Origin: Sulfurovum sp.
GTDB lineage: Bacteria > Campylobacterota > Campylobacteria > Campylobacterales > Sulfurovaceae
Length of the DNA stretch: 51,816 bases
Direction: 5' to 3'
Assembly (NCBI GenBank): GCA_026990595.1
Contig: JALXCZ010000032.1
Span: forward strand, 1 to 51,816
In this document: positions 8,552-29,303 of the stretch, piece by piece
How the letters are laid out: each line of letters begins with the position of its first letter
How positions within the stretch are numbered: the first letter of the stretch is position 1
Notes under the pieces: generated by a model
What the model saw: the letters and a program-made list of their open reading frames with translations, nothing else
Told to the model about the DNA's origin: nothing
Database searches by the model: none
Made by a program: the position numbers and the translations under genes

Positions 8552-8562
8552 ACCTATCCTCC

Positions 8563-9510: not shown

Positions 9511-9511
9511 T

Positions 9512-10270
9512 TTAGTGACCTCCCTCTTCTTCATGTGATTCATGGGCATTATTGTCAAAATCCATGAAACTTCTGTTGTCTAACTTCTCTTCATTTTTGA
9601 ACGGTTCCAAGAATCTGTCGATCACGCTCTCATGCGGATTACCGATATGCTTAAGATGCGTTACATTGTTAAAGAGACTATATCCTTCAAGTCGTTGTTG
9701 AGCAAGTGGATTGAGTGTCTGGTTACCGCCACCTACATAGAAGTGTTTAGGTTCAGTATGCTTTTCAGGTTTACGTACCTGAACCGCACCTTGATGCTCC
9801 ATGATATATTGGGAGATATGACTGTTGTCATCATCAATATCGCCAAAGATATTTGCCTGTACCGGACAGACAACTACGCATGCCGGCATCATACCGCTCT
9901 CTACACGGTGCGCACAATAGGTACATTTATCCGCTGTATTTGTCTCCGGATCCATATAGATCGCTCCGTAAGGACATGCCATCATACATCCTGCACAACC
10001 GATACATCTGCTGCTGTCTACATTGACGATCCCGTTTTCAAGATAATGCAATGCAGACACCGGACAGATACGCTCGCACGGTGCAGATTCACAATGGTTA
10101 CAACGTAACGGTGTAAATGATCTTGATGTGTCAGGGAATGTCCCTATATCAATATACTTTACACGCAGACGCCAAGAGCTAAGCGGTACTTCATTTTCCA
10201 CTTTACAAGCCACTTCACAACCTTTACAACCCATACATAGGTTAAGGTCAACTAAGAAACCTAGTTTCAT
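9512..10270 (-). CDS. Four-cluster 4Fe-4S electron-transfer subunit (PsrB/TtrB type)
   Basis: 252 residues with 16 Cys in four ferredoxin-like groups: CMGCKGCEVAC, CNHC...CERICP, CIGCAGCMMACP and CTYC...CVVVCP. This is the DMSO-reductase-family B subunit linking the catalytic and membrane subunits. No signal peptide, so it would be exported as a complex with the Tat-bearing catalytic subunit. The C-terminal 90 residues form a polar extension ending in a His/Glu-rich tail beyond the last cluster. AAGGAGG precedes the ATG. First gene of the B-C-A operon. Confidence 0.9.
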   Translation of the reverse strand: MKLGFLVDLNLCMGCKGCEVACKVENEVPLSSWRLRVKYIDIGTFPDTSRSFTPLRCNHCESAPCERICPVSALHYLENGIVNVDSSRCIGCAGCMMACPYGAIYMDPETNTADKCTYCAHRVESGMMPACVVVCPVQANIFGDIDDDNSHISQYIMEHQGAVQVRKPEKHTEPKHFYVGGGNQTLNPLAQQRLEGYSLFNNVTHLKHIGNPHESVIDRFLEPFKNEEKLDNRSFMDFDNNAHESHEEEGGH

Positions 10271-11536: not shown

Positions 11537-12454
11537 TTATTCTGCTGAATCTTCAATAATACGCTTCATGGTATCTTGTGCTTTCACAAGCATCTTTAAG
11601 ATCGTTTTGTCTTTGATAGCAAGCGAAGACGTCAAATTTTCAATACTGAGTGTAACGACCTTCGTCTTGTTACTTTTTTTCTTATGGTAGATCACCATTG
11701 TACATGGAGCAAAAGCACCAGCTTCAGGATGTTTCTTGGAGAGTTCATAAATGATCTTAAGCTTGCAAAGAGAGTAGGCATCATAGAAGATAAAATCATT
11801 GACTTTCTCTTCGTTTAACACCTGATTAAAATCTATATAGTTGGCAACAACAAAACCACTTGGTTTCATATCACTTTCCATCATCATGGTCATATCATCT
11901 CTTGCTTCTATCGCTTCTTTATCTTTTACATCAAATGAATATTCTGTATACAGAGGTTTTTCTGTAACAATACTCCCATAAGATAAACTTTCTTCAACTG
12001 CCAAGGGAACGGTTTTTATAATCGTCTCTCTCGTTTTTTTCTCCAGATTATTAAAATAGGAGTCTTTTACCTTTAAAATATGCTGCTGTGCCTCGGCACT
12101 TAAAAATGCAATGAAAAAATCATCCTCTCCCTTTTTTTGATAGGTCACAATAGAAAAGGGAGTAAAAATGCCGCTTTTGGGTACTTTTGGTATAAGTTTT
12201 ACTGCGATGTCACGATGATACACAGAAATAAGGTTATAGCTGTTAAACAATGTTGCCTTAAACTGTTTTTCATAAGGACCATTCATATCCTGGTTTTTGG
12301 AAACCGTATATCCCTGAAGTATTAATCCGTCTACGATGGTCTGTGCGGAAATTTTCAGATCCTTGTTGGGGATCTTATAGAGAATAATATCTTTGTTCGT
12401 ACTTGCAAACACCATAGTAAACATTACTATATAGATGACTAAAACTCTTTTCAT
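11537..12454 (-). CDS. Exported protein with two DUF302 domains (paralogue 1)
   Basis: 305 residues, signal peptide at residues 1-18 (ends VFA), then two DUF302-like repeats: YNLISVYHRDIA ... SGIFTPFSIV and YDAYSLCKLKII ... AGAFAPCTMV. It is clearly related to the next gene, and the second repeat of each keeps a Cys in the A-P-C motif. AAAGGA precedes the ATG. It has its own promoter (12480-12511) with the same operator layout as soxX, so it can be expressed both by readthrough and on its own. Biochemical role unknown. Confidence 0.82.
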   Translation of the reverse strand: MKRVLVIYIVMFTMVFASTNKDIILYKIPNKDLKISAQTIVDGLILQGYTVSKNQDMNGPYEKQFKATLFNSYNLISVYHRDIAVKLIPKVPKSGIFTPFSIVTYQKKGEDDFFIAFLSAEAQQHILKVKDSYFNNLEKKTRETIIKTVPLAVEESLSYGSIVTEKPLYTEYSFDVKDKEAIEARDDMTMMMESDMKPSGFVVANYIDFNQVLNEEKVNDFIFYDAYSLCKLKIIYELSKKHPEAGAFAPCTMVIYHKKKSNKTKVVTLSIENLTSSLAIKDKTILKMLVKAQDTMKRIIEDSAE

Positions 12455-12479: not shown

Positions 12480-12511
12480 ATCATAGCAATTAAGTGTAAA
12501 AATAGTGTAAA
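12480..12511 (-). promoter_or_regulatory. DUF302 promoter with tandem TTTACAC repeats
   Basis: On the minus strand: TTTACAC (12505-12511), 4 bp, TTTACAC (12494-12500), 8 bp, TATGAT (-10, 12480-12485, preceded by TGC as an extended -10). The 11-bp repeat period and the overlap with the -35 position are typical of OmpR-family activator sites. The spacing equals that at soxX (20086-20117). Confidence 0.7.
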
Positions 12512-16016: not shown

Positions 16017-17792
16017 TTAGCACTTGGCACCTTTTTGCGGACATCCGCAATCATAATCCAATACTTTTACATTCGATGTCATTGAAATATCAACCACTTT
16101 TTGTTTACGAATATAATCACTGACCACTTCATAGACAGCTCTTATTTTCTTTTCATCCAGATTTTCCCCTGCATTTTGCAGATTTCCTCCCCATGATGAA
16201 ACTTTGTAAGTCTTTTTACGATCAATCGGTTTACCTCCTATTTTAAAATCTGAGATCCGTTTACCTGAAGGAGCTGAGATCTTAATACTGTAGCTTGCGC
16301 CTGTCAAACGACTCATATCTCCACCCTGTTGCAGTAACGGATTTTCATTAAAGACATTATCGGCTATATCTTCCATAAGATTTGCAATCACTTCACCTTT
16401 AAGATCAAATGTATAGACTTCAGGATACGTAATAGCTGTCATCTCATATACATTGTCTTTAAGGATCTTGTCTCCTGGGAGAAGTGTTGTTCCCCATCTG
16501 TATCCGGGGGTGAAGACAATGTCACTTCCCATCTCAGCCTGTATCGCCTGACCTATCAGTGCATCAAATGTTGAGTAGAAAGTATCTCTTTTGTAAAGAA
16601 GTCCTTTGGTCGTACCCAATACTTCATTGAGCTCTTTGTCAAAAGGGGCATAGGCTTTATCTACCAATACTTCTCCGGCTTTGTCGGCAGGAATGAGGTT
16701 TGAGGTAACAGGCATCAATTTAAAGCTGTAGTCCACAACTTTTTTATTTTTAATATCAAGATCCAGTCTACCCACATACTTACCATGACTTCCCGCGATC
16801 AAGATAACCGTATCATTGACAATGATCGGTTTAGGACTTGGATCATGTGTATGTCCACTTAAAATAAAGTCAACACCTTTAACTTTCTTTGCCAGTTCCT
16901 GATCTACAGAAAAACCGTCATGGCTGAGCACAACGACACAGTCCACTTTTTTCTTGCTGCGAAGTTCATCTATGAAACCTTGTAAAGACTCATGTCTAAG
17001 TGCAAAACTCCATCCTTCGGTGAATCTCTTTGGATTTGCAGTGGAAGTGAACGGGAATGACTGTCCGATGATACCGATCTTCACCCCACCCACTTCTTTA
17101 ATGGTATACGGGGGAAAGATCAACTCTTCAAAATTATCTGAGAAAGGATCATTGTCAATCACATTTTGGGAAATAAATTCACCTTTAAGCATCTTGATAA
17201 GTTCCATTACACGTTCTTTACCATAAGTAAATTCCCAGTGTCCCACCATCACATCTACACCCAAATAATTTTGAGCATCCACAATGGCTTCACCCTTTGT
17301 TTTAAGCGCAACTGCCGTACCCTGCCATGTATCACCCGAATCAAGTAAAAGAACATTTTCTGCCCCTCTTTCTTTTTTCACATGATCTATAATAGGTTTC
17401 ATATGTGCAACACCACCCATCTTGCCAAATTTTTCCGCAAGAGCCTCAAAATTATTGTAGGTATCGAAATATTGATCCAATGACCCAGATTCGATTCCGT
17501 AATAACTCTCAAAACTGTCTCCACAGATAAACCCGGGGGTTCCTACCAAATTTTTTGCAGAGATCAGCGTGGATGGTTCTCTCCAGTAAAGTGGTTTAAT
17601 ATGCGCATGCATATCACAGATATGAAGTAGCGTTGCTTTTCCTTTGGCTTCAAAATCCACAATATCAGAAAAACTCAGTTTTTTAATGCGCTCTTTGGCT
17701 GCTTCTCCTGCAAAAAGGTTAGTACCTCCTGTTGCTCCCAGTAATCCTAAGGCTGCTGCGATCTGAAGGAAATCTCGTCTATTAATATCCAT
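16017..17792 (-). CDS. soxB: SoxB, sulfate thiol esterase
   Basis: 591 residues. SoxB hydrolyses the sulfate group from the SoxYZ-bound cysteine S-thiosulfonate in the periplasm. Twin-arginine signal NRRDFLQIAAALG at the start. Dimanganese 5'-nucleotidase-family motifs are present: HICDMHAHI, LLDSGDTWQG, VGHWEFTYG, VLSHDGFSVD and LSGHTHDP, followed by the substrate-binding C-domain. It ends in a Cys-rich CGCPQKGAKC tail. AGGAGG precedes the ATG. Last gene of soxXYZAB, 11 bp after soxA. Confidence 0.96.
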   Translation of the reverse strand: MDINRRDFLQIAAALGLLGATGGTNLFAGEAAKERIKKLSFSDIVDFEAKGKATLLHICDMHAHIKPLYWREPSTLISAKNLVGTPGFICGDSFESYYGIESGSLDQYFDTYNNFEALAEKFGKMGGVAHMKPIIDHVKKERGAENVLLLDSGDTWQGTAVALKTKGEAIVDAQNYLGVDVMVGHWEFTYGKERVMELIKMLKGEFISQNVIDNDPFSDNFEELIFPPYTIKEVGGVKIGIIGQSFPFTSTANPKRFTEGWSFALRHESLQGFIDELRSKKKVDCVVVLSHDGFSVDQELAKKVKGVDFILSGHTHDPSPKPIIVNDTVILIAGSHGKYVGRLDLDIKNKKVVDYSFKLMPVTSNLIPADKAGEVLVDKAYAPFDKELNEVLGTTKGLLYKRDTFYSTFDALIGQAIQAEMGSDIVFTPGYRWGTTLLPGDKILKDNVYEMTAITYPEVYTFDLKGEVIANLMEDIADNVFNENPLLQQGGDMSRLTGASYSIKISAPSGKRISDFKIGGKPIDRKKTYKVSSWGGNLQNAGENLDEKKIRAVYEVVSDYIRKQKVVDISMTSNVKVLDYDCGCPQKGAKC

Positions 17793-17803
17793 TTTCTTCC
17801 TCC

Positions 17804-18562
17804 TTATCTTTTTAAACCGGGAATTGCTATAGGTTTTTTCTTCTCTTGAGCAAGTTTGGAGATATAAACTTCAAGACCTACCATCTCTTTTGAACCTATA
17901 GGGATCACTTTCAGCAATGCATTCTTCATGCATCCCTGAAATCTTCTTTGCAATGTTCTCAAACTTGATTTTGTCATCCTGTATGCAGGCCAGGTCGCAC
18001 CTGAGCCGGCCTCACCAAGATCAGGAAGAGGCTGTGTCCGAAGTACCATACCCACAATATCTTTACTATGACATGAATTACAAGAAAGCCCTCTTCCTCC
18101 TCTGGCAGTTTCAAATGTTTTTTTACCAAGATCATAAGAGGCTTTTTCATGCGGTTCACTTAGATCAATATTTGCAACTTCATCATTGGCTAAAGATTTC
18201 ACGTAGGCCAGTATGGAAAACATTTTCGCACTTTTAAGCTTGAATTTTTCTTTACCCTGCTCCACCTGCATGGCCTGCACCACCTGATCAAGTCCAACGA
18301 CATTACCAAGACTTTTCACATATTTGGGAAAACCAGCGATCGTTTTGGGCAACTCTTTTTCAGATACACCCAAAAATTTTGCCAGTGCTGCCTCATCACC
18401 AAGTTTTTCAAACAGTTCTCCACCCTCTTCTACATAAATATCAGCAGGATTGTTCTCCAGCATTTCCTTGTACATTGCTCTATCGGCATCACTCATGGCA
18501 AATTGCTCACCCGCACTTGCCATGGTTACCAAAAGAGCAATCGGAAGTATGATTCGTTTCAT
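17804..18562 (-). CDS. soxA: SoxA, monoheme c-type cytochrome
   Basis: 252 residues with signal peptide. SoxA pairs with SoxX to attach thiosulfate oxidatively to SoxY. Only one heme motif is present (C161-NS-C164-H165); the N-terminal heme of diheme SoxA proteins is absent, so this is the monoheme type. The conserved catalytic Cys ligand is C211 in RRFQGCMKN. The gene begins 2 bp after soxZ. Confidence 0.94.
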   Translation of the reverse strand: MKRIILPIALLVTMASAGEQFAMSDADRAMYKEMLENNPADIYVEEGGELFEKLGDEAALAKFLGVSEKELPKTIAGFPKYVKSLGNVVGLDQVVQAMQVEQGKEKFKLKSAKMFSILAYVKSLANDEVANIDLSEPHEKASYDLGKKTFETARGGRGLSCNSCHSKDIVGMVLRTQPLPDLGEAGSGATWPAYRMTKSSLRTLQRRFQGCMKNALLKVIPIGSKEMVGLEVYISKLAQEKKKPIAIPGLKR

Positions 18563-18564
18563 TT

Positions 18565-18909
18565 TTAATCCTTTGGCTTAAGTTTCTTACTCTTGGAGTT
18601 CTTCTCACCTGTATTATCTGTATAATCTACTGTGATCTTACCTTTTCCGGGAACTTTGAAGTTCACTGAGAAATATGGATTTGTTGAAACTGTCTCCCAT
18701 ACTTTCATTGTTGTGAAAGGTTTACCGTCAAAACTGAATGTAATGTTATCTATATAGTGCGCCGGTTTGATCTCACCCGTTTTTTTATCTTTTTTCATAC
18801 CCGTATCCATAGGGTGTATCACAATAAAATCTACTTTTACGATATCACCTGTTTTATACTTCTTAGGTTTGATTTTTATCATTGATTTTCGTGCTTCGGT
18901 TTCTGCCAT
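18565..18909 (-). CDS. soxZ: SoxZ, sulfur-carrier complex subunit
   Basis: 114 residues, no signal peptide; the Ig-like fold partner of SoxY, exported together with Tat-bearing SoxY. Typical segments: KTGDIVKVDFIVIHPMDTG, HYIDNITFSFDGK, and the C-terminal GKITVDYTDNTGE. AAGGATAAAAA precedes the ATG. It lies between soxY and soxA. Confidence 0.95.
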   Translation of the reverse strand: MAETEARKSMIKIKPKKYKTGDIVKVDFIVIHPMDTGMKKDKKTGEIKPAHYIDNITFSFDGKPFTTMKVWETVSTNPYFSVNFKVPGKGKITVDYTDNTGEKNSKSKKLKPKD

Positions 18910-18967
18910 TTTTTATCCTTTATTTAATATTGTTTTTTCTGCTTCTGGTGACACAATCGATCCAAGA

Positions 18968-19444
18968 TCAACCACATCCACCGATTGTTACTTTAATACT
19001 TTTAGCTGCTTTAATGAATGTACCGTCACTAAGTTCAACCAGACCTACAACCTCCTGTGTTCCACCAAGTTTTACACGTGTGGCAAAATAGCCTTTGGCA
19101 TTTGCCGGAGTCAGCATGACATCGACACATCTTGCATTACCGTTCTTCGTATTCAGAATATGGATCGCTTTGACATAATTGTTCTCTTCCATCGGGTGAT
19201 CCACTTCAACCTTTACAGGTACAACGGCACCATTCTCTGCGATCTCAGGCACTGTTAATTTTATTTTATCACTGTCTTTAACCTCTTTACCGCCTGTAAT
19301 TGCTGCCACTGCAGCATCATAGGTCATGTCGTTTGGTCCTTTCTTTTTTGCTTTAGGTGCATCCTCTTTTGCCATTAGAGCCATAGGAGCAGCAGCTACT
19401 GCTGAAGCTGCCATCATACTTTTCATAAAACTTCTTCTTTTCAT
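18968..19444 (-). CDS. soxY: SoxY, sulfur-carrier protein
   Basis: 158 residues. N-terminal KRRSFMKSM is a twin-arginine signal. The mature protein ends in GGCG: the swinging-arm cysteine (C157) that carries the growing sulfur chain is one residue from the C-terminus. The usual SoxY ending is GGCGG, so the arm is one Gly shorter here. Forms the SoxYZ carrier with the next gene. Confidence 0.95.
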   Translation of the reverse strand: MKRRSFMKSMMAASAVAAAPMALMAKEDAPKAKKKGPNDMTYDAAVAAITGGKEVKDSDKIKLTVPEIAENGAVVPVKVEVDHPMEENNYVKAIHILNTKNGNARCVDVMLTPANAKGYFATRVKLGGTQEVVGLVELSDGTFIKAAKSIKVTIGGCG

Positions 19445-19467: not shown

Positions 19468-20040
19468 TTATTTTTTCTTTTCAGCAACAATATACGATGC
19501 AATATCACAGATCTCACGTTCTGTAAAAAGTTTTGTCGTAAGATTGATCGTCATATGGGTTTGAGGATTGTCTATCCTCGCGTCAGCAATCTTTTGGAAT
19601 ACAAACTGATTGTCTCTGGTCTTGGTATTGATGAACTTTTCCTTGTATCCTGTAAGATCCGGACCGATATTCCCTGCACCTTTAGCACCGTCTATGTTAT
19701 GACAAGCTACACAGTTACCGTACTGTTTAGGCTTCTTTATGACTTTTCCGTCTTTGCCTTTTTTCTCTATGAATTTTGCCAACCCTTTAGGTGGTGCTTT
19801 TTTTGCTTTTTTACCGTTAAGATTATGGAAAATATACTCCCCTCTTGCAATCACCTCCGCATCCGTAGAGATACACCCTTTGGGCATTATATATTTCGTC
19901 GGTTTTGCAAGGGCATCTTTTTTTATCATCTTGCTGGCATCAGGCATTTCATATGCTTTGGTCAAATCTGCAGCATTCACAAATGATGCTACTGTACTTA
20001 ACATCACTGTAGTTGTGATGAGTTTGATCTTTCTTTGCAT
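19468..20040 (-). CDS. soxX: SoxX, c-type cytochrome
   Basis: 190 residues with signal peptide. Heme motif CVACH at 110-114, followed by GAGNIGPDLTGYKE as in SoxX, and a Met-containing THMTINL segment that probably gives the axial ligand. Forms SoxXA. AAGGAG precedes the ATG. First gene of the operon, with the operator-bearing promoter at 20086-20117 just upstream. Confidence 0.93.
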   Translation of the reverse strand: MQRKIKLITTTVMLSTVASFVNAADLTKAYEMPDASKMIKKDALAKPTKYIMPKGCISTDAEVIARGEYIFHNLNGKKAKKAPPKGLAKFIEKKGKDGKVIKKPKQYGNCVACHNIDGAKGAGNIGPDLTGYKEKFINTKTRDNQFVFQKIADARIDNPQTHMTINLTTKLFTEREICDIASYIVAEKKK

Positions 20041-20085: not shown

Positions 20086-20117
20086 ATCTTAACAAAGAAG
20101 TGTAAAGAAAGTGTAAA
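20086..20117 (-). promoter_or_regulatory. sox operon promoter with tandem TTTACAC repeats
   Basis: Minus strand: TTTACAC (20111-20117), 4 bp, TTTACAC (20100-20106), 8 bp, TAAGAT (-10, 20086-20091). The repeats are 11 bp apart, one helix turn, and cover the -35 position. This suggests activation by an OmpR-type regulator, most simply the one encoded at 21291-21950. Confidence 0.75.
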
Positions 20118-20146: not shown

Positions 20147-21301
20147 TTATTTTATTAAAAAAGTATATGTAAAAGTTGTACCTTTCCCGAGAGAAGAGTC
20201 CACATGTAACGTAATGCCCTCTTCATCTATGATCTGTTTAACGATATTCAGTCCGATACCAAAGCCTCCTTTGGCTTCATCTTCTCTATAGTATCGTGAA
20301 AAGATCTTCTGCGTATTTTCTATGCCGACCCCATGGTCTTTGACCTCAAAGACAATACCTCCGTCAACACTTTTTAAGACAATCTCGACTGTACTATGAT
20401 CGTGGCTGTATTTGATCGCATTGGAAATCGTGTTGTCTGCTATACGCTGTAGCTTTGTGCCAGAACAGAGATAATGGATATTCTCTTCTATAGAAACCTG
20501 TAGATCAATATGTTTCAGATTTGCAACTTCTTGGAAATAATCTACTCTTTTTTGGATGAACGCACTCATATCCATACGTTCTTTCTTATGTTCTACGCGT
20601 CCTTGTTTGATGAGATAATCCATATCATTGTAGATCGTTGCCAAAGTTTTGGAAGCAGATTTTATACGATACAGATATTTATTCTCTCCATACTTATTGG
20701 CAAAAAGATCCGCATTGAGGTTGATGATACTTAAAGGGGTATTGATCTCATGCATCGAGTCTTTAATGAAATTATCCAACTGCCGGTTAAGCCTCTCAAA
20801 AGGCGCAGAGAAATTACGCAGCAATAGCCAGGAAAAAAGAAAAAGTGCGATCACAATAGCAATCATTACGGAAAAAGCAAAAAGATAGATTTTGCTTGCG
20901 GTATGTACCGTTTCTACCAGTAATTTACTTGCACCAAAATAATACCCTTGAGGAAGCGGATAGATATAATAGTATTTATTCTCTTCTTTATGATATCCGG
21001 AAATAAAAGATTGGGGCTCGAAATCCAAAGTAGAGAATATCTGTTTGTCACTACTGTCAAGCAGGGCAGACCGATACTCTTTAAAACGTGGGAAATGATA
21101 TACCTTGTCACTGCTTTTGTAGTGTTGCATGGAAGCAATGATCTTCTTTGCCTGCAATTCCAAAGAGAGTTTTACCTTTGCCTCATCTATCTGTAAAAGC
21201 AAAAAGATATAAGTTACCAACGGCACAATGAGCAGAACAGCCAAGACTGCCGTATAAATCATGGCATATTTTCGGGCAAATTTTTTAACATCAAAAATCA
21301 A
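20147..21301 (-). CDS. Sensor histidine kinase of module 1 (sox-linked)
   Basis: 384 residues from a TTG at 21301 that overlaps the regulator's 3' end. This start matches the paralogous kinase at 25772, which also begins with TTG at the equivalent place; longer starts would read far into the regulator gene. Two transmembrane helices (about 14-37 and 136-160) flank a ~100-residue periplasmic domain. The H-box is DSMHEINTPL with H184, and N, G1 and G2 boxes follow (NTISNAIKYS, DHGVGI, GFGIGLNIVKQI). Third gene of the sensor-regulator-kinase operon, ending 107 bp before soxX. Confidence 0.9.
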   Translation of the reverse strand: MIFDVKKFARKYAMIYTAVLAVLLIVPLVTYIFLLLQIDEAKVKLSLELQAKKIIASMQHYKSSDKVYHFPRFKEYRSALLDSSDKQIFSTLDFEPQSFISGYHKEENKYYYIYPLPQGYYFGASKLLVETVHTASKIYLFAFSVMIAIVIALFLFSWLLLRNFSAPFERLNRQLDNFIKDSMHEINTPLSIINLNADLFANKYGENKYLYRIKSASKTLATIYNDMDYLIKQGRVEHKKERMDMSAFIQKRVDYFQEVANLKHIDLQVSIEENIHYLCSGTKLQRIADNTISNAIKYSHDHSTVEIVLKSVDGGIVFEVKDHGVGIENTQKIFSRYYREDEAKGGFGIGLNIVKQIIDEEGITLHVDSSLGKGTTFTYTFLIK

Positions 21302-21950
21302 TACTGTACCCCACTCCACGAATATTTTTGATAAAATCCTTTTTGAGTTTTTTACGTAAAGTACCCACCTGTACCCGAATATTTGTAGGATCGATCCATT
21401 CACCCCATACTTCTTCCCAGAACATCTCATAACTTACCACATTGCCTCTTTGTTTGATAAGCAGTTCAAGTATCTTCGCTTCTGTTTTGGCAAGCATGAT
21501 CTCCTCTTCTTCAAAAGAGAGTTTCATATTTTTCACATCATAGCTGTACCCAAAAGGCAGAGACAGATGTTCATCTGCTGTAGAGAAACAATATGTTTTG
21601 ATCGCCTGCTCTACACGCAACTTGAGCTCAGCAAGATCAAAAGGTTTACGAATATAGTCGCAGGCTCCACATTCATACCCTCTGCTTAAATCATCGATCT
21701 GGGTTAAAGAAGTAATAAAAATAGCCGGTAGTTTTACTCCCTCTTTCCGCAGTGCCTCAAGCATCTCAAAACCATTTTTTTCTCCTAAGACCTTGACATC
21801 CAAAAGTAACAGATCATAGATATTCTCATACACAGCATCATATGCCCGTTCTGAATGTGAAAAACAATCAACATCATATCCACAATCTTCCAAAAACTCC
21901 TGCATGCTCAATGCCAACATAGATTCATCTTCCAGAATAAGTATTTTCAT
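21291..21950 (-). CDS. OmpR-family response regulator of module 1
   Basis: 219 residues: receiver domain with phospho-acceptor D51 (LLLLDVKVLG), conserved FITSL and KPF motifs, then a winged-helix DNA-binding domain (QRGNVVSYEMFWEEVWG ... VQVGTLRKKLKK). The loop after D51 reads VLGEKNG rather than the usual P-G-x-x-G. Its ATG overlaps the sensor stop by 4 bp. Best candidate to bind the TTTACAC repeats at 12480, 20086 and 23127. Confidence 0.93.
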   Translation of the reverse strand: MKILILEDESMLALSMQEFLEDCGYDVDCFSHSERAYDAVYENIYDLLLLDVKVLGEKNGFEMLEALRKEGVKLPAIFITSLTQIDDLSRGYECGACDYIRKPFDLAELKLRVEQAIKTYCFSTADEHLSLPFGYSYDVKNMKLSFEEEEIMLAKTEAKILELLIKQRGNVVSYEMFWEEVWGEWIDPTNIRVQVGTLRKKLKKDFIKNIRGVGYSIDF

Positions 21951-23053
21951 TGTATGACTCCAACCTTTTTTTCATTATGTTTATTGGAAAGAATGATATC
22001 AATGAGTTCATCCTTGCTGTATTCTTTTAATATCTCTTTTGCTTCAGATTCCAGTGCACGCTTGTCTTCTTTTTTTAATTTTGGCAAAAGTGCTATCAGG
22101 TCCTTATCATATCCGCTTCTAAAACTGCCATAGGGATATTCCCATGATGCCACAACCTCTTCTATGTCTTCATCGGAGAACTGGGTGAAAAATGAAACAC
22201 CCTGGTTGGCTTTTTCATACCGATGCAATGCTTCATCAGAAAGTGTAAGCAGATAGCTGCCTATCTTTTTTCCTTCCCCGTTATACATTGGTTCAAGTAG
22301 ATAAAGTCTTTTATCCTGATAAAGATAACTTTTACTCTCAAGCACATCCCAATCAAGCAATGCGATCTTCGGTTTAAGCATATGATTAAAATTACGATTT
22401 ACGATCACATCATCATGCAATCTCGGAAAGTCTCGCATGAGTACGGCTTTGTTGAGATACTGTTCATCCATGAGAGCAAAAAGTTCTATACCTTTTTTAT
22501 GCAGCTTTGAAGCAAATTCGTCTACAAATTTAATGACTTCCAGATAGCCAAGAAGTTTTCCTCCGCTGCGGATGGGGATCGTTGCTTTAAAGGTTAGTAG
22601 CCTGCCTACCTCCATACCTACTTTAGGCTGTTTTCTTGATTTTAACTTTTGAAGATCATCTCTGAACCACCAGATAGGCATTCCTTCAAATCCTTCATTC
22701 CAGCTGCGGGCAAAAATAAAAAAATCCGGTGTCAATACCTGTATACGCAATGACTTCAAATGGGTATATTTTTTAAAACGCTCCGTGATCTTACTGAGAA
22801 TACCATATCCTTTACTTTCATCCTCTGCTATAAGAGCATTTTTCAGCTCTCCATCTTCAGAGAGTGCCATAGAGAAAGAGAGAAGATCTGCCATCTCATA
22901 GGTGAGTCCTGCTCTGAAGTTGCTTACCACATGATCACCCAAATTCGCCAATCTGTCCTCTTTACTCTGATTCAGAAAGAAAAAAACAGAAGCAAGCAAC
23001 AACATCAGTACAAAAAAAATGACCCAAAGAGAGATCTTGTTAAATCGTTTCAT
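21947..23053 (-). CDS. Single-pass membrane sensor protein, Cache-like, module 1
   Basis: 368 residues. One N-terminal transmembrane helix (about 8-28), then a long helix and a Cache-like extracytoplasmic region with FIFARSWNEGFEGMP, PKVGMEVGRLL and PIRSGGKLLGYLEVI. No second membrane span and no kinase, methyl-accepting or cyclic-dinucleotide output domain. It is therefore a separate sensing subunit that would have to signal through the kinase. A helical C-terminal extension absent from the paralogue ends in KKVGVIQ. The paralogue at 24209-25126 shares the RSW and E-V-G motifs and a GVIIQ end. Ligand unknown; a sulfur oxyanion is my guess from context. Confidence 0.8.
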   Translation of the reverse strand: MKRFNKISLWVIFFVLMLLLASVFFFLNQSKEDRLANLGDHVVSNFRAGLTYEMADLLSFSMALSEDGELKNALIAEDESKGYGILSKITERFKKYTHLKSLRIQVLTPDFFIFARSWNEGFEGMPIWWFRDDLQKLKSRKQPKVGMEVGRLLTFKATIPIRSGGKLLGYLEVIKFVDEFASKLHKKGIELFALMDEQYLNKAVLMRDFPRLHDDVIVNRNFNHMLKPKIALLDWDVLESKSYLYQDKRLYLLEPMYNGEGKKIGSYLLTLSDEALHRYEKANQGVSFFTQFSDEDIEEVVASWEYPYGSFRSGYDKDLIALLPKLKKEDKRALESEAKEILKEYSKDELIDIILSNKHNEKKVGVIQ

Positions 23054-23071
23054 AATATTAATGCTACGAGA

Positions 23072-23099
23072 TTAAGCCTATCATAAGGCTTAAGTTTTT
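23072..23099 (+). terminator. Plus-strand terminator-like hairpin in the sensor leader
   Basis: Stem TTAAGCCT / AGGCTTAA (8 bp, 6-base loop) followed by GTTTTTT on the plus strand. No plus-strand gene precedes it, so it may stop antisense transcription. On the minus strand it is a hairpin in the 5' leader of the module 1 sensor. Confidence 0.45.
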
Positions 23100-23126
23100 T
23101 ATTAAAATAAAAAAAACTAATAATTT

Positions 23127-23158
23127 TTTATATTATATTTACACTTTCATGCTATTAT
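23127..23158 (+). promoter_or_regulatory. Phosphoesterase promoter with TTTACAC-like repeats
   Basis: Plus strand: TTTATAT (23127-23133, 5 of 7 matches), 4 bp, TTTACAC (23138-23144), 8 bp, TATTAT (-10, 23153-23158, preceded by TGC). Same architecture as the soxX and DUF302 promoters. It also lies upstream of the divergent module 1 sensor gene. Confidence 0.6.
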
Positions 23159-23191
23159 CTAAAATAATCTATTAAATGAAAAAGGTGGAAA

Positions 23192-24037
23192 ATGAAAAAG
23201 GTATCAAGAAGAGATTTTCTTAAAAGTGCTGCAGCACTAGGCAGTATGCCCTTTTTGGCAGAAGCAAAAGATACTGAGAATCAACAGAGTCTAAAGTTCA
23301 TCCATATTACCGATTCGCATATGGATTTGGGTAATGACGAGAGTGTAGAGGCAATGGAGCTTATGGTGGAGCATATCAACAAGCATTACAAGGCACTTGA
23401 CTTTGTTGTATTTGGTGGGGATAATTTTAATAATAATGTGAAGGGGAATGGTGATGCCTTAGTTTACAAAAAGATCATAGACAAACTTCACTGCTCTACC
23501 TACCATGTCAGAGGCAACAAGGAGGCTCACCCTGATCCTGACGATGCCATCCATCTGGATGAATTCAAGAGACTTTTTATGTCAGACAAAACACTTAACG
23601 TCCAAGGAAAGGACTGGGTACTTGAGACAAAAGGAGTTGCTTTTCTGGGACTGGACAGTTGTATTGAGGGTGCAAATAACGGTCTGTACACGGAAGAGAC
23701 CATAAAGTTCGCAGAAAATATCCTTAAAAAAGGGAAGCCTACCGTGATTCTCAACCACCATCCCTACACCAACTACTGGAAAGGGACAGACCCAAAGGAC
23801 ATACATAAATATGTACTCAACAATACAAACGAAGTACAAAAGCGTCTTTTCAAATTTGACAACCTTATCCTGACACTCTCAGGACACAAACATATAGACT
23901 CTGTTACCACTATCAACAAAACAAAAGTGATCGTTACAAGAGGATTCATCAGACCATTGGATATGGATATGTATCCGATGCGTTATGTGGAGATAGTAGA
24001 TGGAAATATCAATGAAAAATTGATCTATACATCATAG
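23192..24037 (+). CDS. Tat-exported calcineurin-like metallophosphoesterase
   Basis: 281 residues. Twin-arginine signal VSRRDFLKSAAALG, then the dimetal phosphoesterase motifs ITDSHMD, FGGDN, VRGNKE (usually GNHE), NHHPY and SGHKH. It would act in the periplasm on an unknown phosphoester. SoxB belongs to the wider superfamily, but this protein lacks the nucleotidase C-domain and is half the size, so it is not SoxB. AAGGTGG precedes the ATG. It sits between the two signalling modules and shares the sox-type operator. Confidence 0.85.
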   Translation: MKKVSRRDFLKSAAALGSMPFLAEAKDTENQQSLKFIHITDSHMDLGNDESVEAMELMVEHINKHYKALDFVVFGGDNFNNNVKGNGDALVYKKIIDKLHCSTYHVRGNKEAHPDPDDAIHLDEFKRLFMSDKTLNVQGKDWVLETKGVAFLGLDSCIEGANNGLYTEETIKFAENILKKGKPTVILNHHPYTNYWKGTDPKDIHKYVLNNTNEVQKRLFKFDNLILTLSGHKHIDSVTTINKTKVIVTRGFIRPLDMDMYPMRYVEIVDGNINEKLIYTS

Positions 24038-24063
24038 TTATATCGGAAATGAAAAGAGTAAGA

Positions 24064-24093
24064 AGAAATAATGATTTAGTGAGTATTATTTCT
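24064..24093 (+). terminator. AT-rich hairpin after the phosphoesterase gene
   Basis: Nine-base-pair stem (AGAAATAAT / ATTATTTCT) with a 12-base loop, 27 bases after the stop. Weak stem and no long U-run, so a modest call. Confidence 0.4.
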
Positions 24094-24141
24094 ATAACTT
24101 CAACTTCAGAATGTCACACAGAAAAATACTTAAATTTACTC

Positions 24142-24181
24142 GCTCTTAATGTTAAGAGCACAATTTTTAATATGCTATAAT
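24142..24181 (+). promoter_or_regulatory. Promoter and palindromic operator of module 2
   Basis: TGC-TATAAT (extended -10, box at 24176-24181) lies 28 bp before the TTG chosen as sensor start. The perfect palindrome GCTCTTAA-TG-TTAAGAGC (24142-24159) covers the -35 position, a strong operator candidate. The promoter falls inside a longer open frame, which is why the earlier ATG at 24149 is not used. Confidence 0.6.
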
Positions 24182-24208
24182 AAAATTAAAACAAAGAAGC
24201 ATATAAAA

Positions 24209-25126
24209 TTGAGTATATTTGACAAACTAACAGCTAAAATTGATAAAATTGTTTTTATTTTTACAGTTCTAGTTCTCTTTTTTTCCTTCTATTTTGTCTA
24301 CACATTAAAACAGTCCTATGCGCAAAAAGAGACCGTACAGTCACTAGATAATGCACTTTTTTTAACAAGAAATCTACTAGAAGAAGAGCAGCAGCATGCC
24401 CTCTCTCTTTCTTTACTTCTTTCTCAAGACAAAACATTTTTAGAAGCTTTTTACAAGAATAACAGAAAAAAAGCATTTGAGATTATCAGCCAAAAGATTG
24501 AAAGCTTGAAAAAGTTGCAGGGTTACAGTTTTGAAGTACAGGTGCATGATAAAAACCTGCATACCTACCTAAGAAGCTGGGATTATTCTATCAAAGATGT
24601 TCCACTTGCATCTTTTCGTAAAGGGTTGGTTCTAGTCAAAGAACGTAAAAAACCTTTAGTATCTATTGAGGTTGGTAAGCGGTTAAATATTAAAGCTATC
24701 TCTCCCATTATGAAAAATGGTTCTTTTGAAGGTTCTATCGAAGTAATAGAGAACTTTGAACACTTGAGAAAAACACTTGCAGAGCACGGTTACGCACTGC
24801 TCATACTTCTTAATAAGAAATATCTTAATATTGCGACAACACTACAGCATCATCCTATTGTTTTTAATAAATTTGTTCTAGTCAATGACAGCTATAATAA
24901 ACATAGTTTTCAAAGTTTAAAAAATTCAGATTTAAAAAATCTTCAGAGTTATGGGTACTTTACACAAGATAAATATGCATTTTCTTATTTCAGTATCAAA
25001 AATTTTGAAAATCAAAATCTAGGCTATTTTATTGTTGTATTTGAAAACAGTACACCACTCATACTTAATACACATGATGAAGTGATCACTCAGGAAATCA
25101 ACAATTCTGGAGTGATCATTCAATGA
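24209..25126 (+). CDS. Single-pass membrane sensor protein, Cache-like, module 2
   Basis: 305 residues from TTG at 24209 (AAAGAAG upstream; an earlier in-frame ATG lies upstream of the -10). One N-terminal transmembrane helix (about 14-34), a helical stretch, then a Cache-like region with YLRSWDYSIKDVP, VSIEVGKRL and ALLILLNKKYLNIA, clearly paralogous to 21947-23053. No second span and no output domain. It ends NNSGVIIQ, overlapping the regulator by 4 bp. Together with the next two genes it forms a three-component unit directed at tsdA. Confidence 0.8.
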   Translation: MSIFDKLTAKIDKIVFIFTVLVLFFSFYFVYTLKQSYAQKETVQSLDNALFLTRNLLEEEQQHALSLSLLLSQDKTFLEAFYKNNRKKAFEIISQKIESLKKLQGYSFEVQVHDKNLHTYLRSWDYSIKDVPLASFRKGLVLVKERKKPLVSIEVGKRLNIKAISPIMKNGSFEGSIEVIENFEHLRKTLAEHGYALLILLNKKYLNIATTLQHHPIVFNKFVLVNDSYNKHSFQSLKNSDLKNLQSYGYFTQDKYAFSYFSIKNFENQNLGYFIVVFENSTPLILNTHDEVITQEINNSGVIIQ

Positions 25127-25788
25127 AAATATTGCTTTTAGAAGATGATGTCAGTTACAAAGAGACGATACAAGAGTATTTAGAATCTTTAAACTACAGC
25201 GTAGAGAGTTTTGAAAATGGTGATGAAGTGGTTGATGCACTCCATTTTAAAAAATATCATTTGCTACTTTTAGACATTCGTGTACCAGGGAAAAGCGGTT
25301 ATGAGATTGTGAAGATGCTCAGAGAACACAAAGATGATACACCAGTAATCTTCATAACATCTTTAACAGATATTGATAACCTAAGCATAGGCTATGAACT
25401 CGGGTGCAATGATTACATTCGCAAACCATTTGCGGCACAAGAGTTAAAGTACCGTGTTGAACAGGTACTGAAGCTTTTTTATCTCCACTCAAATGATGAG
25501 TATTTGGCACTCAATAACGCGTATAGCTATAACCTCACAAAAGGAAAACTTTTGTATAAAGAGGATGTTGTTGCAATCACACCAAAAGAAAAAAATGTTC
25601 TTGATTATTTGATTACACATCTAGATCAGTATGTTTCAACAAAACAGCTGTGGGAAGATGTATGGGAAGAGAAAATGGTCACTGAAGCAGATATCCGTAT
25701 GTGCATTAAAAAAATTCGTGATAAAACGTATGCTGAATTCATTGTCAGTAAAAAAGGGTTTGGGTACAAAATTGATAAAAAAAGATAA
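25123..25788 (+). CDS. OmpR-family response regulator of module 2
   Basis: 221 residues: receiver with D51 (LLLLDIRVPGKSGYE), FITSL and RKPF motifs, winged-helix C-domain (VSTKQLWEDVWEEK ... IRMCIKKIRDK). Close paralogue of the module 1 regulator. Probable target: the TTACG repeats upstream of tsdA. Confidence 0.93.
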   Translation: MKILLLEDDVSYKETIQEYLESLNYSVESFENGDEVVDALHFKKYHLLLLDIRVPGKSGYEIVKMLREHKDDTPVIFITSLTDIDNLSIGYELGCNDYIRKPFAAQELKYRVEQVLKLFYLHSNDEYLALNNAYSYNLTKGKLLYKEDVVAITPKEKNVLDYLITHLDQYVSTKQLWEDVWEEKMVTEADIRMCIKKIRDKTYAEFIVSKKGFGYKIDKKR

Positions 25789-26914
25789 ACGGTATATCTA
25801 TACACTGGCATTTTTTTACTCTATGCTGATTATCTTCGTGGTCAGTATTCCTGCCTTTTTTTATATATCGGTGGAAAAGAAGAGCTACAAACAGACACAA
25901 ATGCAAAATTTGGAACATTATGCCTATGGTGTAGAGAAGAGTATTTATGATTTTTCTCGTACAAACAAGCATATCTTTCATTTTCCCCGTTCTTTGTTCT
26001 ATACTTCATGTCTTTATGGAAAGAACCGTAAAATTCTTTTTGCTACAGATGAATCAATGTGTGAAAATATTGCAGCCAATAAAATGCAAGAAAACATACT
26101 TAGTAAAAACGTTCTTTTAAGCACCAACAGACTTCAGGCAAAAGAACTTACCATTGCCAAAAGTTTTTCCTATAAGAACATTTATACAAAAGCATTTATT
26201 GCAGCGCTTTTCTTGGGAGCCATTATCTTTTTTATGACACTCTTTTTTGTAAAGATCAGCCTGCGTCCACTTGAAAAAGCCAATCGATACCTTACTGTCT
26301 TTTTCAATGATGCAATGCATGAACTTAAAACGCCTTTGGGAGTGATGCAGCTTAATTTGGAGTTTTTACGCTCAAAAGAAGAGAGTAAAGTACTGCGACG
26401 TCTTTATAATAGTATGCAGAGTATGATCTTGATTTATGAAGATATAGAGTACCACATCAAACATACACATGTAGAGTATAAAGCAGAACATTTAAATTTT
26501 TCACATTTTTTGCAAAACCGCATTGAAGTTTTTTCTGACCTTGCACGTATAAAAGATATTGACATAGAAAAAGAGATTATAGATAATCTATCATTGAATA
26601 TAAACCGTATAGAACTTCAAAGAATCATAGACAACACCATCTCAAATGCCATCAAATACAGTCCAAAAAAAACAAAAATAATCATTAGGCTCTATAAAGA
26701 AGCCGACCATATCATCTTCAGTGTTCAAGATCAGGGTGTCGGTATCAGAGATACCAAAAAGATATTTGAACGTTATGCACGTGAGGATGTCATTCAAGGT
26801 GGCTTTGGTATCGGGCTGAGTATTGTAAAACACATATGTGATAAAAACGGTATTGAAGTCTCTGTAGAAACACAACTCTCTCAAGGCTCTCGCTTCTCCT
26901 ATAGATTTTTATAA
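25772..26914 (+). CDS. Sensor histidine kinase of module 2 (tsdA-linked)
   Basis: 380 residues from a TTG at 25772 that overlaps the regulator's end, as in module 1. Two membrane helices (about 10-33 and 141-161) flank a short periplasmic domain that keeps the HIFHFPRS segment (HFPRF in module 1). H-box NDAMHELKTPL with H183, one residue off the module 1 position; NTISNAIKYS, DQGVGI and GFGIGLSIVKHI are the ATP-binding motifs. tsdA follows 70 bp later on the same strand. Confidence 0.9.
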   Translation: MIKKDKRYIYTLAFFYSMLIIFVVSIPAFFYISVEKKSYKQTQMQNLEHYAYGVEKSIYDFSRTNKHIFHFPRSLFYTSCLYGKNRKILFATDESMCENIAANKMQENILSKNVLLSTNRLQAKELTIAKSFSYKNIYTKAFIAALFLGAIIFFMTLFFVKISLRPLEKANRYLTVFFNDAMHELKTPLGVMQLNLEFLRSKEESKVLRRLYNSMQSMILIYEDIEYHIKHTHVEYKAEHLNFSHFLQNRIEVFSDLARIKDIDIEKEIIDNLSLNINRIELQRIIDNTISNAIKYSPKKTKIIIRLYKEADHIIFSVQDQGVGIRDTKKIFERYAREDVIQGGFGIGLSIVKHICDKNGIEVSVETQLSQGSRFSYRFL

Positions 26915-26925
26915 CTCTTTTTTAC

Positions 26926-26960
26926 TTACGCAAAAGTTACGTAGCTATTGTTACTATAAA
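26926..26960 (+). promoter_or_regulatory. tsdA promoter with TTACG direct repeats
   Basis: TTACG at 26926-26930 and 26937-26941 (11-bp period), then 13 bp and TATAAA as -10 (26955-26960). The repeat differs from the sox-type TTTACAC, fitting recognition by the second regulator. Confidence 0.5.
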
Positions 26961-26984
26961 TATATTCATTTGAAGGAGAATAAA

Positions 26985-27941
26985 ATGAAAACAAATCTAA
27001 CAAAACTTTCACTGAGTGCAATCGTACTTTTAGTTATGGGGACAAATGCAATGGCTCAGACACCGACGGCAGCACCTAAAACGTATCCTGCCGGTGAAGT
27101 CGGCAAGATGGTAAAGCTTGGTGAAGATATTTTAATGCATACCGATACGCATCCGCTTACAAAAGATATGGTAGGTGATAATTTAAAATGTATCAGTTGT
27201 CACCTGCGCGGTGCAGATGGAAAACCTGGTACTGCACCGGGGATCGCTACATTCATAGGAACAGCGACAGCTTTCCCTGCCTATTCAAAAAGAGAAAAAT
27301 CAGTACAAACACTGCAGGACAGGATCAACAACTGTTTTATGAGAAGTATGAATGGTAAGCGTCCTATCATTGATACAAAGGCCTCTGTTGCTATGGCTGC
27401 CTATGTAACATGGCTTTCAGAAGGTATGTCTATGAAAATGAATCCAAAAATGCCTTGCAGTCCGTTAAATTCAGAACGATGGATGCATGGTGCTAAGCAT
27501 TTTGCAAAAATCCAGAAAAAAGCAACCCATGCAAACTATATAAATGGTAAAAAGCTTTACGAGGCAAAATGTGCATCGTGTCACGGGGAAAATGGTGCCG
27601 GCATGGGAACATTCCCTCCGCTTTGGGGTAAAAATGGCAAAGGGGAGTGGCTGGCGTACAATACGGGTGCAGGTATGAGCAAACTTAATAAAGGTGCGGC
27701 ATGGGTTCAGTCAAATATGCCGCTTGGTCAGGGTGGAACACTCAAAGATCAGGAAGCGGCAGATATTATGCTGTATGTTGATGCGCAGCCACATGCTGAT
27801 TTCAACTTGCAAAAAAGACTCTATCCCTCAAGCAAAATGGGTTACTACAACTCTAAAGTGTTGAAAGAGACACACTCTGTACGCAGTAATTTCAAACAGT
27901 TTGGTCTAGATGTAGATGCAATTCGCGGAGATAAAAAATAA
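26985..27941 (+). CDS. tsdA: TsdA-type diheme thiosulfate dehydrogenase / tetrathionate reductase
   Basis: 318 residues from the ATG at 26985 with GAAGGAG 6 bp upstream; a TTG five codons earlier would contain the ribosome site. Signal peptide ends AMA. Two heme motifs, CISCH (69-73) and CASCH (196-200). The TsdA signature RINNCFMRSMNGK contains Cys117, the expected axial ligand of the catalytic heme. TsdA joins two thiosulfates to tetrathionate or does the reverse, as shown for Allochromatium and Campylobacter jejuni. The preferred direction here cannot be judged. A porin follows 15 bp later. Confidence 0.88.
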   Translation: MKTNLTKLSLSAIVLLVMGTNAMAQTPTAAPKTYPAGEVGKMVKLGEDILMHTDTHPLTKDMVGDNLKCISCHLRGADGKPGTAPGIATFIGTATAFPAYSKREKSVQTLQDRINNCFMRSMNGKRPIIDTKASVAMAAYVTWLSEGMSMKMNPKMPCSPLNSERWMHGAKHFAKIQKKATHANYINGKKLYEAKCASCHGENGAGMGTFPPLWGKNGKGEWLAYNTGAGMSKLNKGAAWVQSNMPLGQGGTLKDQEAADIMLYVDAQPHADFNLQKRLYPSSKMGYYNSKVLKETHSVRSNFKQFGLDVDAIRGDKK

Positions 27942-27956
27942 AATAAGGAAAAAAGA

Positions 27957-29303
27957 ATGAAATCAATACATAAAAATAAAATCGTTCTATCATTGTTAGC
28001 TGTGTCTGCCCTTTCTATGAGCTTACATGCTGCAGATTGGCTCTCTATCGCGGGAACGCAACCTTCATTTATTAAAAAAGATGGTAAAAAGATAGAAAAC
28101 CATAATAATAAGCCGCATTTATGGGGTTTTATTCAGACAGGGTATCAAAACAACTATGGAGATATTTTTATCCCGGGGGCAGGTCCAAAATCAGGCTTGA
28201 ATTTAACACCATTTTCTATGTTACCTCCCAATTTAAATTCTCAATCAGGATTTGAAGTCAACCGTGCACGTCTAGCTGTACGTGGGATGATCGATAAAGA
28301 GAATACATTTGATTATTTCTTTATGACAGAGTTTGGAGAAGATGGTATCACCAAACCAGCAGGACATGCATCTAACAACTACCTTACCGATGCATCTATT
28401 ACCTATAGAGGTATTCCCTATTTTAATATCAGACTGGGACAGTTCAAATATCCAGGAAGTGAAGAAGGATTAAGAGCTGTATTCGCTTCTACTTACAGAA
28501 ATTTTTCTACAGCAGAATCACAGCTTTTACTAGAGCGTTTTTTACCTAACAATGCAAAAGAGATCAAACCAGGTCTTTTTCAGGCAGCTCCAGAAGAATC
28601 TGTAGGTGCCTATCGAGATAGAGGTATAGAACTTTTTCATACTTTCAAAATAGCAAATAAAACCATGTTGACATGGGCAGGAATGATAGGTAGTGGTACG
28701 GGAATGAGTTCCTCCAATGCTTCAGGTACCCCAACCTATTATGGGTACCTCGCTGCTGAGTATCTTTTTGGAAAAGGAAAAGGCTATTACACACAATCAC
28801 TCAAAGGGTTCGTATGGTACCAAAATGGGAAAAGACAACTCAACAATAAAGACTATACAAGAGAGCGTTATGGCGTTGGCTTTAACTATTTTCGTAATGG
28901 TTTACGTGTAGGTGCAGAGTATATCAAAGCCAAAGGAATGATATATAATGGTGCAAAAGATGTAGATCATGATCCCTATAGTGTAAACTGGGAATACCAG
29001 ATTGCAGCAGATAAAAACAATGAAGCAGATGGAGGATATGTGAATCTGCAATATTTCTTTATACCTAAAAAGTGGGAAGCGATGGTACGATATGATTATT
29101 TGAATCGTCTCACTAATTCCACAACAGGTGAGAGAAAATTTAAAACAACTACCCTTGGACTCTCTTATCATTTCAAAGGTCCTACAAGAATAGACGTAAA
29201 CTATGCCTTTAGGGATGCAGATGCTCCGGGCAATGCCAAAGCACAAAAAGTGTTGGATCATACAGGAAACCTTTTAAGTATTCAGGCAACCTATAAGTTT
29301 TAA
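27957..29303 (+). CDS. Outer-membrane porin (OprO/OprP-like), tsdA-linked
   Basis: 448 residues with signal peptide (ends HAADW). A barrel pattern follows: HLWGFIQTGYQNNYGD, FEVNRARLAVRGMI and YFNIRLGQFKYPGSEE are typical of OprO/OprP-like porins, and the protein ends IQATYKF with the terminal aromatic. Probably lets thiosulfate or tetrathionate through the outer membrane for TsdA (inference from position). It parallels the porin placed after soxB. Confidence 0.85.
   Translation: MKSIHKNKIVLSLLAVSALSMSLHAADWLSIAGTQPSFIKKDGKKIENHNNKPHLWGFIQTGYQNNYGDIFIPGAGPKSGLNLTPFSMLPPNLNSQSGFEVNRARLAVRGMIDKENTFDYFFMTEFGEDGITKPAGHASNNYLTDASITYRGIPYFNIRLGQFKYPGSEEGLRAVFASTYRNFSTAESQLLLERFLPNNAKEIKPGLFQAAPEESVGAYRDRGIELFHTFKIANKTMLTWAGMIGSGTGMSSSNASGTPTYYGYLAAEYLFGKGKGYYTQSLKGFVWYQNGKRQLNNKDYTRERYGVGFNYFRNGLRVGAEYIKAKGMIYNGAKDVDHDPYSVNWEYQIAADKNNEADGGYVNLQYFFIPKKWEAMVRYDYLNRLTNSTTGERKFKTTTLGLSYHFKGPTRIDVNYAFRDADAPGNAKAQKVLDHTGNLLSIQATYKF

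Follow-up and report, generated by a model that had tools for sequence, protein, structure and literature searches.

A kinase-regulator pair encoded beside a thiosulfate or tetrathionate enzyme cluster is known from TtrS-TtrR and ThsS-ThsR, and ThsSR was itself discovered through such gene linkage and later validated (PMC5408782, PMC11293645). There, the periplasmic domain is PhnD-like and part of the kinase polypeptide (PMC5408782). The 51,816-nucleotide contig JALXCZ010000032.1 of Sulfurovum sp. (hereafter the window) carries two operons of comparable placement, each encoding a stand-alone sensor with a dCache_3 domain, an OmpR-type response regulator (RR) and a histidine kinase (HK), module 1 preceding soxXYZAB and module 2 preceding tsdA and a porin gene. 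They fall outside the TtrSR/ThsSR type, since the sensor is a separate membrane-anchored dCache_3 protein, both kinases (HK1 and HK2) lack a PhnD-like domain as well as a HAMP domain, and the regulator is of the OmpR type. We consider it probable that each operon constitutes a three-component system, in which the dCache_3 protein is the input subunit of the HAMP-less kinase and the OmpR-type regulator is an activator of the adjacent sulfur operon.

A separate extracytoplasmic protein also governs the kinase in TorT-TorS and LuxP-LuxQ, where it is a soluble binding protein of the periplasm (TorT, LuxP); the partner described here is membrane-anchored instead, and its kinase has only a minimal periplasmic domain. 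QseG-QseE follows the same principle with QseG as an outer-membrane lipoprotein (PMC12691602), whereas the present dCache partner is anchored in the inner membrane and encoded first in its operon. DctB, DcuS and CitA offer the nearest solved folds for the sensor, but the domain is part of the kinase in them and a free-standing protein here. SoxR likewise makes sox expression depend on sulfur substrates, yet it is an ArsR-type cytoplasmic one-component sulfane-sulfur repressor of unrelated family and mechanism (PMC10451225, PMC12423496), and it is stated to be confined to Proteobacteria; Sox is placed in about 31% of Campylobacterota species by a published survey (PMC10451225). In Arcobacter butzleri RM4018, three kinase-regulator pairs with an adjacent extra sensor or regulator gene were listed (AB0416-18, AB0453-55, AB0795-97), which can be likened to the present modules by that description alone, no domain, function or linkage being given there (PMC2147049). 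No description of a sox control system of this form was found in the literature searched, and no sox or tsd regulator came up in the portions of a review of Campylobacterota respiratory regulation reached by keyword search (PMC6682613).

The initial annotation had depicted two paralogous sensor-regulator-kinase operons sharing a 4-bp overlap of sensor and regulator genes, TTG kinase starts inside the regulator genes and a kinase His at residue 184 or 183, all of which proved exact. On the minus strand the order runs sensor 1, RR1, HK1 and then soxX, Y, Z, A and B, and divergent from it the plus strand carries a metallophosphoesterase-like gene, sensor 2, RR2, HK2, tsdA and the porin gene. Identity between the modules amounts to 29% for the sensors (E 8e-25), 42% for the regulators and 34% for the kinases, well beyond chance. 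The term "duplicated" had to be given up in the sense of a local duplication, as modules 1 and 2 belong to distinct ancient clades, both with orthologues of their own in different families, and the tsd module of same-family genomes is 76–78% identical.

Pfam matches above cut-off assign a receiver and a winged helix to the regulators and HisKA and HATPase domains to the kinases, and on these domains the RR and HK pairs are classed as two-component systems. The phospho-His of HK1 (184) and HK2 (183) lies in the motif HE(I/L)(N/K)TPL, of which H, E, T and P are invariant in the kinase family, as are the catalytic residues, so that by its motifs the kinase is intact. In the AlphaFold model of the kinase, with a predicted local distance difference test score (pLDDT) of 86, a transmembrane (TM) helix is followed by a small five-stranded periplasmic domain (77-133) and by a second TM helix leading straight into the dimerisation helices; the periplasmic region holds conserved F-x-F-P-R, LYD and YFGAxYLVV motifs.

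As for the sensors, the dCache_3 family (PF14827) was matched by sensor 2 above the Pfam cut-off (E 7e-11) and by sensor 1 below it (E 1e-4), for which a structural model confirms the double Cache fold. Its AlphaFold model (pLDDT 87; predicted template modelling score 0.71) comprises a long N-terminal helix and a double Cache domain, with extra C-terminal helices in the sox-type protein. A profile search of PDB sequences gave no match and a fold search was needed instead, in which DctB (Z 14.9) and LuxQ (13.8) were the best solved folds; the distal module superposed on CitA and DcuS with a root-mean-square deviation of 2.1–2.2 (for CitA 2.2 over 129 residues). Exactly one TM segment is present in 114 of 130 family members, the C-terminal one being missing in nearly all, and the domain search found no output domain in the sensors. 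The stand-alone, Cache-like, single-helix sensor previously proposed is confirmed. A TATAAT box downstream of ATG 24149 makes TTG 24210 the probable start of sensor 2. The perfect palindrome GCTCTTAATGTTAAGAGC (24142-24159), just upstream of the probable sensor 2 -10 box, was considered as an operator and rejected, being unconserved in the nearest relatives. The conserved sensor C-terminus K-x-G-x-I-K/R probably reflects the Shine-Dalgarno sequence and ATGA overlap of the regulator gene and not a protein function.

Systematic comparison covered 120 genomes of the order, with the neighbourhoods of about 160 loci read by script. Counts were built on alignment searches because a Pfam family search of the Sulfurovum genome itself had overlooked sensor 2; some distant, low-scoring relatives of 280-330 residues in other operons (L086, L090 and others) were excluded as members, and the scan of named genomes was made with sox-type sensors only, so that sox-type members are over-represented in the named set. 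Of the 120 genomes, 72 contain sensor homologues. The condition named in the initial annotation as refuting, sensors mostly unlinked to kinase/regulator pairs, came out clearly in the reverse sense: RR and HK both lie within 3 kb of 120 of the 130 distinct stand-alone sensors; the other ten comprise six at contig ends and four away from them, namely one split from its kinase (genome G021) and three Campylobacter-like cases. Conversely, a profile of the kinase N-terminus recovered 51 kinases at 110 bits or more, followed by a gap to 97, and 50 of these adjoin a sensor, the genome of the remaining one (G021) carrying its sensor elsewhere. In that genome (L046/L135 and L152) sensor and RR-HK pair are unlinked and both kept, the pair standing next to a riboflavin-biosynthesis gene.

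Of the 110 same-strand sensor-RR pairs measured, 100 show the 4-bp overlap, and TTG is the kinase start in 92 of 112 cases. Tree distances of sensor, RR and HK correlate with r=0.90-0.91, and the phs and cytochrome groups introduced below form clades in all three trees. Conserved linkage and co-occurrence place sensor, RR and HK in one three-component system, in which the sensor would contact the kinase. In a phylum-wide sample the family was seen solely within this order, and one match from the named genomes (L149) is labelled Flavobacteriaceae. A distant stand-alone dCache_3 protein (L090:8507-10604, minus strand) lies beside MotA/ExbB-like and outer-membrane efflux proteins instead of a kinase, another possible output for such a domain.

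Linkage of the modules to sox and tsd, noted earlier for this locus, turned out to be general across the relatives examined. Four kinds of operon are flanked: soxXYZAB, tsdA, phsABC-type reductases and an operon that encodes multihaem cytochromes, a peptidyl-prolyl isomerase (PPIase) and proteins with NHL repeats. Among the stand-alone sensors 58 are linked to soxXYZAB and 19-20 to tsdA. Viewed from the enzymes, a module adjoins 17 of 19 soxXYZAB-type soxB loci and 15 of 22 tsdA matches, these adjacencies having been obtained by comparing coordinates between searches and not by a single script, and the other type of soxB is adjoined by none of the modules found. The PhsA-type reductases score 999-1057 bits against an NCBIfam thiosulfate reductase cut-off of 694. 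Sulfurovum indicum transcribes its soxABXYZ cluster and the adjacent genes dsrE, soxW and soxH1 more strongly with thiosulfate than with sulfur (PMC10045233), which lends independent support to sulfur-responsive sox control. In the cytochrome/NHL subfamily (L071:12615-19735; also L056, L065, L068, L072, L073, L075, L077, L079) the module precedes paired-CXXCH cytochromes, NHL-repeat proteins and the PPIase, sox-like TTTACA repeats being present in six of the nine, and at L065 the operon also holds a Cys/Met-metabolism pyridoxal phosphate enzyme and an Rrf2 regulator; this operon possibly serves extracellular electron transfer or insoluble sulfur use. At L043:5165-7123 (minus strand) the gene of a chemoreceptor that carries this sensor domain separates HK1 from soxX, a hint that chemotaxis may follow the same signal.

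PhoB/OmpR class II promoters carry 11-bp direct repeats directly upstream of the -10 box, which follows at a distance of about 10 bp, and have no -35 box. With at most one mismatch, TTTACA-N5-TTTACA was present in 51 of 55 soxX upstream regions, against a mean of 0.57 and a maximum of 3 in dinucleotide shuffles. These 11-bp direct repeats usually lie about 45 bp upstream of soxX, a TANNNT box usually follows 9 bp after the second hexamer, and there is no -35. By their layout these sites belong with the PhoB/OmpR-type class II promoters, from which the present family differs in repeat sequence and in having sox, tsdA and phs as targets, and RR binding is predicted. Across the whole Sulfurovum genome, perfect matches to the composite TTTACACN4TTTACACN6GNTANNNT are confined to soxX and a DUF302-like gene located at the distal end of the sox cluster, and a copy with two mismatches faces the metallophosphoesterase gene; four further genomes of the genus, and one from a different family, share the DUF302-gene site. 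At tsdA, TTACG-N6-TTACG with TACTAT is unique in the genome even when one mismatch is allowed, and two relatives (L182 and L173) have three TTACG-type repeats there. The phsA group and other tsdA groups bear their own 11-bp repeats. Only 11% of control promoters have a repeat with a -10 box, whereas the share is 80% for soxX (Fisher p 1e-26), 60% for tsdA (6e-7) and 73% for phsA (8e-8). Self-regulation of the modules was discarded, the sensors' own promoters reaching 7% against the 11% of controls. The promoter sites, as predicted RR binding sites, provide the missing link between regulator and sulfur genes and are the strongest new result of the analysis.

Building on the observed gene order, domain content, fold, conserved linkage, co-inheritance and promoter sites with genome-wide specificity, the following mechanism can be proposed. 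The membrane-anchored periplasmic dCache_3 protein would serve as the input subunit of each system and bind a sulfur compound of the periplasm, thiosulfate being the most likely candidate along with its close relatives (tetrathionate, sulfite). Its state would be passed to the HAMP-less kinase via the periplasmic domains and TM helices of both proteins, whereupon the kinase would phosphorylate its own OmpR-type regulator. By analogy with the known families, this His-Asp phosphotransfer would lead to binding of the phosphorylated regulator to the 11-bp direct repeats just upstream of the -10 box and to activation of soxXYZAB and the DUF302 gene by module 1 and of tsdA-porin by module 2. That the dCache protein is a receptor acting through the kinase and that thiosulfate or a relative is its ligand we infer, chiefly because Sox, TsdA and Phs have thiosulfate as substrate or product.

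Several findings weigh against this proposal. Among the closest solved folds the ligands are dicarboxylates, citrate or amino acids, and LuxQ partners with a binding protein; the pocket-like residues R116, W118, R131, K/R156 and E172 are equally conserved in relatives fused to GGDEF domains or belonging to methyl-accepting chemotaxis proteins (MCPs); the cytochrome/NHL operon offers no obvious thiosulfate pathway; the kinase's own conserved periplasmic domain could be the real input; a sensor is kept without an adjacent kinase in three Campylobacter-like genomes (L163, L164, L166); and contact between sensor and kinase is putative. The earlier idea of an accessory sulfur-sensing subunit consequently stands in part, favoured by linkage and promoter sites, and the pocket, being common to chemoreceptor-fused relatives, cannot identify a sulfur ligand.

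The carboxylate-binding fold neighbours DctB, DcuS and CitA, together with a fourth module group that adjoins the cytochrome/NHL/PPIase operon and pocket-like residues unspecific to the sulfur-linked members, would also suit modules that sense a signal other than a sulfur oxyanion (C4-dicarboxylate, citrate, sulfide-derived thiols or nitrate), with the sulfur genes as part of a wider respiratory response. We regard this as doubtful, because Sox, TsdA and PhsABC, which are unrelated and have thiosulfate in common, each have their own module subfamily and promoter repeats, and because the predicted regulons in the Sulfurovum genome are tiny and local, a poor fit to a global respiratory regulator.

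Alternatively, the kinase may sense alone, through its small periplasmic domain or the redox or quinone state of the membrane, with the dCache protein as a modulator (a brake, stability partner or adaptation subunit) and the regulator still controlling sox and tsd. Every one of the 51 clade kinases is found in a genome with a sensor, whose coevolution with the kinase is as close as that of the regulator and which is first in the operon and translationally coupled, unusual for an optional modulator; this renders kinase-alone sensing unlikely in spite of the conserved periplasmic motifs of the kinase, the compact beta domain in its model and the distant relatives of the RR-HK pairs that lack a neighbouring sensor in the same genome. 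It is very improbable, already from the linkage data, that chance alone keeps the sensor with the regulatory genes, as a stand-alone fragment of a chemotaxis or accessory receptor: the domain is common in MCPs of these genomes and one such MCP lies inside a sox operon (L043), but the sensor has no signalling domain, its C-terminal TM segment is missing in nearly all members, its coupling to the RR gene by 4 bp is near-constant and the trees of sensor, RR and kinase match.

The features of the locus are collected in Table 1. Near the sox cluster lies a molybdopterin oxidoreductase operon (5201-10270, minus strand) with an A subunit of 1116 residues and NrfD/TtrC-like and TtrB-like subunits, for which no match reached the curated family cut-offs. 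A VgrG-like type VI secretion spike gene occupies the edge of the window (5-2194, minus strand), and a second tsdA-like gene elsewhere in the same genome (G000 contig C11:72220-72933, L155) is 50% identical and has no module.

Table 1. Genes and predicted promoter sites of the two modules and their linked operons (positions in the window).
Feature	Position	Strand	Remarks
Sensor 1	21947..23053	-	Single TM helix at the N-terminus; dCache_3 in the periplasm (about 30-280); additional helices at the C-terminus (294-358)
OmpR-family response regulator 1 (RR1)	21291..21950	-	4-bp overlap with sensor 1 gene
Histidine kinase 1 (HK1)	20147..21301	-	TTG start 21301 within RR1 gene; His184; two TM helices
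soxX promoter	20086..20117	-	TTTACAC-N4-TTTACAC direct repeat and TAAGAT -10; predicted RR1 site
soxX	19468..20040	-	Heads soxXYZAB; adjacency to module conserved in relatives
soxY, soxZ, soxA, soxB	16017..19444	-	
Second perfect sox-type promoter site	12480..12511	-	40 bp from end of second repeat to ATG of DUF302-like gene
DUF302-like gene	11537..12454	-	Predicted second RR1 target
Weak sox-type site, 2 mismatches	23127..23158	+	Divergent promoter, oriented toward metallophosphoesterase gene
Metallophosphoesterase-like gene, exported by twin-arginine translocation (TAT)	23192..24037	+	Divergent neighbour, often retained in related genomes
Sensor 2	24149..25126	+	Short form of dCache_3 sensor, one TM; probable start TTG 24210
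OmpR-family response regulator 2 (RR2)	25123..25788	+	4-bp overlap with sensor 2
Histidine kinase 2 (HK2)	25772..26914	+	TTG start 25772 within RR2 gene; His183; without HAMP
tsdA promoter	26926..26957	+	TTACG-N6-TTACG direct repeat and TACTAT -10; predicted RR2 site
tsdA	26970..27941	+	Dihaem thiosulfate dehydrogenase/tetrathionate reductase-like cytochrome; ATG probably 26985
Porin gene	27957..29303	+	Co-linear with tsdA; homologues also flank (after or before) other modules

Overall, these modules likely govern sulfur oxidation across a major group of bacteria from vents and sediments, a control apparently undescribed so far. There is an even prospect that they make up a three-component family with a detachable membrane-anchored dCache receptor, acting as the general thiosulfate-type sensor of Campylobacterota in four subfamilies (sox, tsdA, phs and cytochrome/NHL), each with its own promoter repeats, of which the sox branch would be the missing sox regulator of the phylum; for the narrower proposal that the module is the sox regulator of Campylobacterota, we see a good chance. 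Sulfurovum, Sulfurimonas and similar Campylobacterota rank among the leading oxidisers of sulfur at redox boundaries and vents, and a conserved module together with a defined site at nearly every soxXYZAB promoter renders sox control in these bacteria directly testable. A receptor separate from its kinase would moreover provide a new type of modular sensor for thiosulfate or tetrathionate, such as biosensor design calls for.

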